From positions 1,404,501 to 1,468,500 of the forward strand of contig NZ_AP013072.1 in NCBI RefSeq assembly GCF_000478925.1: 64,000 bases of DNA, in the 5' to 3' direction. The DNA comes from Streptococcus anginosus subsp. whileyi MAS624. GTDB taxonomy: Bacteria; Bacillota; Bacilli; Lactobacillales; Streptococcaceae. The translations under genes were made by a program, and so were the position numbers. Shown here piece after piece: positions 44,208 to 45,842 of this stretch; position 1 is the stretch's first letter; each line of letters starts with the position of its first letter. A model generated the notes under the pieces. It was not told the origin of the DNA. It saw only the letters and a program-made list of their open reading frames with translations, and made no database searches.

Positions 44208-44412
44208 TCATTGTAACAACTCAGTTAAATACCCTCGCTTAATCATCTCCAGATTAAATACATTTGGAATATGAGCAAAAGCTTCCGCAAGAGGTAAGTG
44301 TGCCGTTTTCCAGCCCTGTCCATCTGTTACCCAGACAAAGTTCACATCATCTGTTGAACTCTCGACAAATTGGCTTAGTTCTGTGAGACTCCATCTAATT
44401 TGTACGATTACT
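44208..44412 (-). pseudogene. dpnB: Remnant of a DpnII/MboI-type restriction endonuclease gene (3' end)
   Basis: Immediately after the dpnD stop the minus strand stays open for about 65 codons without a start or ribosome site and ends at TGA (44210-44208). The reading contains VNFVWVTDGQGWKTAH, PLAEAFAHIPNVFNLEMI and ends ELLQ. This matches the C-terminal pattern of GATC-cutting R.DpnII (F-x-W-I/V-TDGQGW, then an E-x-F...N motif), as I remember it. The nuclease domain is missing, so it cannot be active. It appears to be the leftover 3' end of a dpnB gene after dpnC-dpnD replaced the interior of the operon. Confidence 0.75.
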
Positions 44413-44829
44413 CAATAATTCTTGTATAAGTAATAAACGGTGTTCAATAGAGTCCAACCATTCTGGATGATAATCATATTCAAATAAATCTTGATCAAAA
44501 AATTCTAGGTTTTCACTCATCCATCGAATACAGTCGGGATCTGACAAAGTATAAATCATAACGGAGAGAGATTCGGCGTCTTCTTCATTGTCCCAATTAG
44601 GCCAAAATAATTTTACAAATTCATATACTTCGGATGGCGCTACTTTGTCCTTTGAACTATTTACGTTTACCATATCTAAAGTTACATACTCTGTTGATAG
44701 ATAATCATTGGTATCTAGGATAATTTCTTCATTTCGATACAATTGATCAACTTGATTTATCCCCTCTTCAACGGTTGAAGCGTCAATTGTTACAATTTTT
44801 GACAAAGTTTCTATTATCTCAATATTCAT
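44395..44829 (-). CDS. dpnD: DpnD-PcfM family protein of the DpnI cassette
   Basis: A 144-residue protein whose first ~50 residues (IEIIETLSKIVTIDASTVEE ... YRNEEIILDTNDYLSTEYV) match the DpnD-PcfM domain. The rest is acidic and aromatic-rich (FVKLFWPNWDNEEDAESLS, DLFEYDYHPEWLDSIEHRLL). DpnD accompanies DpnI in pneumococcal DpnI cassettes; its function is unknown. It begins 2 nt after dpnC, with a GTAAGG-type site. Its stop overlaps the first bases of the dpnB relic. Confidence 0.85.
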   Translation of the reverse strand: MNIEIIETLSKIVTIDASTVEEGINQVDQLYRNEEIILDTNDYLSTEYVTLDMVNVNSSKDKVAPSEVYEFVKLFWPNWDNEEDAESLSVMIYTLSDPDCIRWMSENLEFFDQDLFEYDYHPEWLDSIEHRLLLIQELLSNRTN

Positions 44830-44831
44830 CC

Positions 44832-45602
44832 TTACCTATCCAACTTTCTATACTGACCTCGTCCAATAAATTCAATGATATTTTTATCTCTCAGCACTTG
44901 TAACTGCTGCCTAATTTTGTCTTTAACAAAGTGATTATTTGGATATTGTTCCTGCAACTCTTTTTCAAATGCATATACATCACTCAAAGTAAAGTTTTTC
45001 TTCGGGATTCTATCAATACAATTCAGAATATCTAATGTCCACCCTCGTGCATCTTTCGTCTTATTTCGTAAAAAAAGTGTTTTTTGAAAATTTTCTTGTA
45101 CTTGTCTCTGTTTTGCAATCTGTCCATCTCTTACTAAAAATATTTTTCCAATCTCTGGAACGTGCGAAATATCAATATTGCAGCCTATCCAACCTGCTCT
45201 TTGAGCACTGGATGACAAGGGTTTTCTTTTAATAATAATTTTAGGTGTAAAAAAATGTTTCGGAATTAAAATAAAATTTATTACCGTCATTTCTTTAGAA
45301 TAGTTCAAAAAGAAAAAGTTAGGGTTATTCTCACTTTCCAGACGACGAATCATCGTATCATAAGCACCGTCGTTAATAATTGTGGAAAAATTAGTTTGCT
45401 TACTTTTCAGCTCAAATTCTTCTCTACAATTAGCACAAAAGAAATCTGCAACAGGACGATTATTTTCAAAATGTGATAAGTAAATCTGCCCACAATTGGG
45501 ACAATAAGCATTTTCCGCAACCCATGATTCTGTTATCACCCTTGCAATTTGAGATTTACTCTTATAACTCTTTGCAAGATGAGTGGGTAACTCTAGTTTC
45601 AT
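44832..45602 (-). CDS. dpnC: DpnI-type methyl-directed restriction endonuclease
   Basis: A 256-residue, full-length homologue of DpnI, which cuts GATC only when the adenine is methylated (type IIM). The N-terminal catalytic domain has a Cys4 zinc site (C34, C37, C56, C59 in YCPNCG and FFCANC) and the PD-(D/E)xK residues D53, E64 and K66 (VADFF ... EFELKSK). The C-terminal winged helix (DKIRQQLQVLRDKNIIEFIGRGQYRKLD) reads methylated DNA. All key residues are intact. An active enzyme requires a host with unmethylated GATC, which fits the truncated methylase upstream. Confidence 0.95.
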   Translation of the reverse strand: MKLELPTHLAKSYKSKSQIARVITESWVAENAYCPNCGQIYLSHFENNRPVADFFCANCREEFELKSKQTNFSTIINDGAYDTMIRRLESENNPNFFFLNYSKEMTVINFILIPKHFFTPKIIIKRKPLSSSAQRAGWIGCNIDISHVPEIGKIFLVRDGQIAKQRQVQENFQKTLFLRNKTKDARGWTLDILNCIDRIPKKNFTLSDVYAFEKELQEQYPNNHFVKDKIRQQLQVLRDKNIIEFIGRGQYRKLDR

Positions 45603-45621
45603 ATATAGTTCCTCTGTATTT

Positions 45622-45813
45622 TCATTTATGCATCAGATCTTCGTAATTCGCTAAAATTCTTTTTGACGAAGGAGTTACAAAAGGCTCAAAATAACGATTA
45701 TATTTTTCAGGCATATAGCTCCTCAATACACTTAAAAGTTGTCGCTTTCCGCCTGTCCATTTGGTAAATGGTTGAAGATTATAGTATTTTAATTTTATGT
45801 TGTCTGAAGACAT
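45622..45813 (-). pseudogene. dpnM: Truncated GATC adenine methylase gene (dpnM remnant)
   Basis: A 63-codon frame begins like DpnM/Dam-type N6-adenine methylases: [20 protein letters not shown] and YNRYFEPFV, covering the SAM-binding motif I region. It breaks after EPFV, where GGGAL normally follows, and ends [15 protein letters not shown]. That tail resembles the EIL-x-TNYE C-terminus of such enzymes, suggesting an internal deletion. The catalytic DPPY motif is absent, so it cannot methylate. Its AAAGGAACA site and promoter remain and probably now drive dpnC-dpnD. Confidence 0.8.
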
Positions 45814-45842
45814 GATTGTTCCTTTGCACATATAGTCTATTT

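Follow-up and report, generated by a model that had tools for sequence, protein, structure and literature searches.

An intact dpnC-dpnD pair, encoding a restriction system of the DpnI type, lies in Streptococcus anginosus subsp. whileyi MAS624 between the start of a DpnM-type methylase gene and the end of a DpnII-family endonuclease gene, all on one strand and in the expected order. The interior of the older operon has been replaced: both of its ends remain, and the cassette between them is complete. Our analysis supports a history in which the two stumps would be remnants of one GATC restriction-modification operon, with dpnC-dpnD occupying its interior. Overall, we consider it very likely (probability about 0.9) that a DpnII operon inserted at tex, that its interior was swapped for dpnC-dpnD, and that the cassette core later passed between lineages.

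The cassette and the two operon stumps

The locus lies between tex and permease genes in a complete Streptococcus genome of 2.12 Mb (G000). Read on the minus strand from 45851 to 44057, it consists of the DpnM-type start, a 73-bp leader, dpnC, dpnD, and the C-terminal codons of the endonuclease. Positions are those of the window, the whole stretch of 64,000 nucleotides that was analysed:

44048..44056, no strand: left 9-bp direct repeat ATTATACCA, found once in the G004 empty site; read toward tex it is TGGTATAAT
44057..44207, minus strand: tail of the acquired restriction-modification element past the endonuclease gene, missing from the empty sites
44208..44384, minus strand: stump of a DpnII-family (LlaDCHI-type) endonuclease, last 58 codons and stop, TELSQFV...ELLQ; PF04556, residues 244-301 of P0033
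44385..44394, minus strand: 3´ junction zone, from the dpnD stop to the endonuclease homology; P0033 reads ...GEF, then TELSQFV
44395..44829, minus strand: dpnD, 144 aa, a DpnD-PcfM domain then a DpnD_N domain by domain profiles
44832..45602, minus strand: dpnC, intact DpnI-type endonuclease, 256 aa, predicted to be specific for methylated GATC by homology to solved DpnI (4esj), with cleft residues kept
45603..45675, minus strand: dpnC leader, 73 bp, origin unassigned; identical in J4206
45676..45813, minus strand: stump of a DpnM-type methylase, first 46 codons, MSSDN...YFEPFV; matches to 2dpm and PF02086
45814..45842, minus strand: sequence preceding the former dpnM operon; the ORF would also allow a longer start at 45831
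45843..45851, no strand: right 9-bp direct repeat ATTATACCA; reads TGGTATAAT toward the operon

The upstream stump ORF (45622-45831, minus strand) matches solved DpnM (2dpm) over query residues 14-53 with an E value of 1.4e-14, and covers positions 1-29 of 253 in the PF02086 profile. It has the N-terminal DpnM/D12 block, which in the 2dpm alignment ends ...YFEPFV, and the end of the stump reads ...YNRYFEPFV. The downstream stump ORF (44208-44345) matches PF04556 at positions 238-277 of 278 (E 1.9e-12), and a genome scan placed the endonuclease stump at positions 223-277 (E 7.7e-13); when run alone against solved structures, this stump gave no match. Neither stump is interrupted by a stop or a frameshift in the window. 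The sequence-only reading of this DNA had proposed this arrangement, with flanking fragments that should align with DpnM and DpnII-family proteins. They do, and the stumps, put at about 45 and 60 codons, are 46 (counted from the MSSDN start) and 58 codons long. The structure placed at 44208..45831 also stands, but the extent was revised, since against the empty site the element is slightly larger, 44057 to 45851.

Fragments this short might be chance similarities or unrelated short genes. The E values, the correct order, strand and ends, and a control in which 3,534 real 250-bp tiles from flanking DNA all scored below 38 bits when compared with dpnM genes (the window upstream region scores 73.8) refute this explanation and leave it practically no chance. 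The first 17 codons of the leader continue in frame from the DpnM stump. A dpnM origin for the leader, of the kind seen in the mitis-type relics described below, was considered and rejected, as the 70 bp adjoining dpnC are not detectably dpnM-derived (best local score 19, null mean 16.4, p 0.135).

The alignment of DpnC to solved DpnI spans residues 2-254 (E 3.3e-104), and the protein has full-length matches to the PF06044 catalytic domain (269.6 bits, cut-off 26.7) and the PF17726 winged-helix domain (124.2 bits, cut-off 23). The residues named for the methyl-binding cleft of DpnI (PMC4117772) are kept, namely Leu129, Arg135, Trp138 and Gly140 by our own count (window KPLSSSAQRAGWIG, DpnI KPLAPTANRAGWIG). 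The nearest named record with the window dpnC is S. anginosus J4206, whose protein is 100% identical. dpnD matches PF14207 and PF23117. In this DpnD fusion the DpnD-PcfM domain precedes DpnD_N; at mitis-type loci the corresponding parts follow dpnC in the opposite order.

No DpnA-like gene was found in the window genome, in a search run without a positive control, and a search for a second GATC methylase in this genome gave only a broken D12 gene elsewhere. That gene (L002, G000:C1:907838-908509), which lies outside the window, is interrupted by TAG and reads DLPY in place of the expected motif DPPY; it is likely inactive. With a streptococcal DpnM query, none of the 23 streptococcal DpnI genomes gave a full-length match of at least 40% identity, and both DpnII control genomes matched at 71-79%. 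Weak D12 methylase matches, with target unassigned, occur in G055 (full length, 32%) and G191 (28%), both of them DpnI genomes.

The lost operon can be typed from its remains. The right stump is identical at 57 of 58 residues to the intact Streptococcus endonuclease P0033 (301 aa, 83 member sequences), the next best being 79-84% identical over 56-58 residues among the 120 relatives listed of 7,063, and it shares only about 39% identity over 44 residues with pneumococcal-type DpnII. The operon was therefore of the LlaDCHI type. The relatives P0041 and P0178 carry the source names llaDCHI endonuclease and methylase. On the other side, the left stump ORF recurs, 93% identical and with the same methylase-leader junction, in P0241, which stands for 56 member sequences (junction read in the representative only). 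P0242, an intact methylase fragment 85% identical to the left stump over 67% of the query, continues ...FEPFVGGGALFFDL where the window methylase breaks off. Thus, the replacement of a DpnII interior by dpnC-dpnD holds as first proposed, but with a LlaDCHI-like endonuclease instead of the DpnII/MboI type, and not at the pneumococcal locus: the site is not galT-pbuX, which we take to be the pneumococcal dpn site. Searches for a carrier element found none: the insert matched two Lactococcus plasmids over 6% of the query only, at a type II endonuclease gene, and no phages, while P0033 gave one 34% match in phage records and none in viral contigs.

Insertion at tex and movement of the core

Five genomes, G000 included, have a permease at least 96% identical to that of the window. 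Two of them carry the scar, namely G000 and J4206 (G056). In the other three (G018, G004 and G076), no operon separates tex from the small gene that precedes the permease. At G004 the empty site is CATAAAGAAC-ATTATACCA-CATTCATC; those of G018 and G076 are more diverged. Aligned with G004, the window shares the left flank and the repeat, continues with a 1,795-bp insert ending in a second copy of the repeat, and then shares the right flank. The insert is thus bounded by a perfect 9-bp direct repeat, and the empty sites together with this repeat document the insertion. Comparison with relatives, which the sequence-only reading had recommended, mapped the breakpoints against empty sites but yielded no DpnII-bearing relative at this locus; only stumps, empty sites and DpnI were seen at tex, and 0 of the 31 streptococcal DpnII loci examined lie there. 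The repeat reads TGGTATAAT on the minus strand and resembles an extended -10 element. Our guess from the consensus is that tex and the operon may both use TGGTATAAT as a promoter element. As the repeat itself is -10-like toward both tex and the operon, the insertion may have duplicated a promoter element.

The second complete genome, S. anginosus J4206 (L004), has an identical scar structure, which is therefore not an assembly error. Between it and the window, 0 of 435 bases differ in dpnD and 2 of 771 in dpnC, and the core from 44371 to 45696 has 2 differences in 1,326 bp (0.15%). Outside the core, divergence is 6.1% in tex, 4.5% in the permease and 9.2% in the following gene; it is 5.0% in the methylase stump with its upstream codons, and 3.2% in the endonuclease stump with the junction. 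Given a near-identical core between diverged stumps and neighbours, the core was exchanged recently between lineages while the stumps kept their resident alleles. As an identity pattern, this indicates passage of the cassette core between at least two lineages, with the edges of the shared stretch coinciding with the stumps. The near-identical core ends 14 and 21 bp from the junctions, tighter than ordinary recombination tracts, and we assume that flank erosion by within-species recombination explains the tight edges. An insertion of 31 bp relative to the window, with a short inverted repeat GTCCT...AGGAC, lies between tex and the endonuclease stump of J4206 (L136).

The same comparison bears on whether the scar arose a single time in a different species and was imported complete, with stumps and dpnC-dpnD. 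The junctions are identical in both lineages, as such an import would leave them, but the stumps differ by 3-5%, near the level of the neighbouring genes, against 0.15% for the core. The stumps were therefore resident in at least one lineage, and an imported scar is unlikely. Codon changes in the stumps of the two lineages comprise 6 synonymous and 4 non-synonymous or nonsense changes, the J4206 endonuclease stump having gained a stop. Neutral change would be expected to be mainly non-synonymous, so the stumps probably remained coding sequence during part of the time they diverged, although ten changes are a small number.

In the history that we favour, an LlaDCHI-type DpnII operon (dpnM-dpnA-...-endonuclease) would have entered the tex-permease interval in an ancestor of this S. 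anginosus-group lineage, leaving the 9-bp repeat. The interior of the operon, running from codon 47 of dpnM to codon 243 of the endonuclease gene, would later have been exchanged for dpnC-dpnD, possibly in a single recombination event through homologous operon ends during DNA uptake. The methylase core, the second methylase and the endonuclease would have been removed as the methylated-GATC nuclease arrived, with the methylases probably lost in the same step. A DpnI host restricts Dam-methylated DNA and must keep its own GATC sites unmethylated. Judging from its sequence, the present cell would likewise restrict incoming Dam-methylated DNA and, with the methylases gone and a DpnI-type nuclease in place, would have to keep its own GATC sites bare.

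The main rival has two steps, in which the operon was disabled by deletion and GATC methylation lost before dpnC-dpnD arrived at an already inactive site. This order would spare the cell a Dpn switch while its DNA is methylated, which is expected to kill it (Johnston et al.). Outside Streptococcus, moreover, the dam of locus L022 has an internal deletion relative to that of L010 despite dpnC in both, so dam pieces erode by deletion. However, a long-dead operon would have decayed more than this one, with its uninterrupted window stumps and a right stump almost identical to an intact enzyme. We regard the two-step order as possible, if rather doubtful; a short methylase-dead phase may nevertheless have preceded the entry of dpnC-dpnD.

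Alternation and dpnM relics across Streptococcus

PF04556 was detected in 34 of 284 genomes and PF06044 in 24 (23 above cut-off). Only G000 and G056 belong to both sets, beside a sub-threshold PF06044 match in G111, and in these two the PF04556 match is the stump. DpnI and DpnII occur in different species as alternatives at one site at four other loci, which hold 14 of the 23 DpnI loci:

purH-purD: DpnI in G064, G256 and G263; DpnII in G058
rsmI-serC: DpnI in G190, G186 and G191; DpnII in G188
galT-pbuX: DpnI at seven; DpnII at ten
Fourth locus: DpnI in G274 (broken dpnC); DpnII in G111

In the DpnI allele of G064 at purH-purD, homology to the DpnII allele extends as far as dpnM codon 6-7 or so and returns over roughly the final 17-19 codons of the endonuclease gene; the rsmI-serC site retains no stump. 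The DpnII locus of G058 at purH-purD (L152, 4828-6647) has a single dpnM-dpnA pair followed by two distinct DpnII-family endonucleases arranged in tandem.

When the 250 bp upstream of dpnC in the 23 regions were compared with 29 dpnM genes, clear dpnM relics (at least 38 bits) were found at 10 of the 23 loci: G000 (73.8), G056 (63.9), G133 (58.0), G055, G126, G047 and G096 (52.0 each), G131 (50.1), G219 (44.1) and G064 (38.2). No flanking tile and none of 2,300 block shuffles reached 38 bits, the highest score being 36.2 in both controls; the line was drawn after the controls were known, and G064 is barely above it. Five weaker relics lie below 38 bits (G074, G130, G132, G256 and G263) and were recognized by matching position or contiguous flank homology. 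The remaining eight loci (G129, G190, G186, G191, G267, G134, G087 and G274) have no convincing dpnM relic.

In cassettes of the mitis type, DpnC closely resembles solved pneumococcal DpnI (E 9.7e-168 for G131); these cassettes retain dpnM codons 128-137, a 10-codon fossil ending 22 bp before dpnC. In G219, codons 128-139 remain and end about 35 bp before dpnC. Break types in Streptococcus fall at dpnM codons of about 6, 40, 46, 138 and 139-141, the last by eye. The mitis type makes up 8 of the 15 relics; the six of these in the DpnC tree share one clade with G129 and so probably reflect one event. In that tree, the 20 of 23 Streptococcus proteins that were long enough form one supported clade, within which the window pair branches deepest. 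Frameshifts or stops break dpnC in G047 (L174) and G274 (L175), and DpnI can therefore also decay in place.

dpnC loci beyond Streptococcus and known systems

Among 64 other dpnC loci (L005-L068), a dam piece occurs on the same strand in 18 and a dpnA piece in 20, with either in 24; the dam piece of L005 is counted at E 6e-3 only. Neither was found at 40 of the 64, some on short contigs. No dam piece extends beyond HMM position 274 of 284, and about half keep roughly 263-274 positions, whereas intact genes reach 282-284 at 31 streptococcal DpnII loci and 281-283 in five Flavobacteriaceae operons with the order dam-R-dpnA (5 of 299 genomes searched, above cut-off). The dpnA pieces start later than intact copies (HMM position 16 at best, against 13-15). 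The DPPY motif is missing at 8 of the 20 loci, and at three more the piece is split or carries an internal deletion. Nearly all of dpnA survives in L038. None of 12 tested genomes with dam or dpnA pieces beside dpnC has a DpnII homologue; in four of them (G284, G288, G289 and G290), other D12 methylases of 27-30% identity reach the C-terminus.

Among the closest dam pairs, omega is 0.05-0.08 for most and 0.19 for one; in dpnA it is 0.02-0.06, with dS near saturation. This record of purifying selection led us to weigh whether the dam-dpnC-dpnA loci of Bacteroidota are working three-gene systems. We gave that reading less weight, in part because of the damaged dpnA pieces, although a few loci, such as L038, may be active. 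In L019 (Flavobacterium) and L023 (Taibaiella), both short contigs, dpnC is nearly identical and dam mostly 74-88% identical until about 150 bp before dpnC. With dpnC near-identical and dam diverged, the selection can date from intact operons. In sequence terms, the pattern matches that of the window compared with J4206. If both short contigs are correctly assigned, it points to a recent transfer of dpnC across families, the Flavobacterium sequence being from an assembly and the Taibaiella one from a MAG.

Several known systems resemble parts of the locus. The pneumococcal cassettes dpnC-dpnD and dpnM-dpnA-dpnB encode homologous proteins with opposite specificities and alternate at one site, with occasional switching within lineages (Croucher 2014, PMC4263131). 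The window differs in its tex-permease locus, its LlaDCHI-type endonuclease, the retention of both torn operon ends and the reversed dpnD domain order. In Neisseria, the DpnI-family nuclease gene drg accompanies a truncated dam in N. meningitidis MC58 and others (Kwiatek 2014, PMC4269198; Jolley 2004, PMC516771), much as the window dpnM is cut at codon 46. There, however, a solitary dam is broken at the leuS/dam locus, whereas here stumps of two genes mark a whole restriction-modification operon; the window works like drg but at a different locus. The LlaDCHI-type operons of Streptococcus and Lactococcus are the source of both stumps, of which the window keeps the ends only. The Bacteroidota loci likewise have dpnC in the endonuclease slot, a truncated dam and a shortened dpnA, but in operons of the order dam-R-dpnA rather than dpnM-dpnA-R.

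Published precedents thus exist in the alternative pneumococcal DpnI and DpnII cassettes and in Neisseria, where drg adjoins a truncated dam. The present case differs in that a complete operon is scarred on both sides, at a new locus, and in that the pattern recurs with mapped breakpoints. We found no report of stumps around a Streptococcus dpnC, or of a dpnM relic before dpnC, in those parts of the literature that were covered; Lacks 1986 and de la Campa 1988 lie outside that coverage, which leaves priority unsettled. More broadly, we lean slightly toward the view that DpnI-type genes habitually spread via the conserved ends of GATC methylase operons, excising or truncating the methylases. 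The mitis and pneumococcal cassette would then be a derived DpnII operon with a 10-codon dpnM fossil, and the same design would extend to Bacteroidota.

At tex, a defence system was swapped for its exact opposite with the torn ends kept, which bears on how a seemingly suicidal switch happens. From scars whose breakpoints are mapped one can see which parts are missing after the nuclease has become established, and one can ask whether methylase loss came before, with or after the nuclease. The allele sets at purH-purD, rsmI-serC, galT-pbuX and tex make this question of order testable by sequence surveys and by simple laboratory switches.
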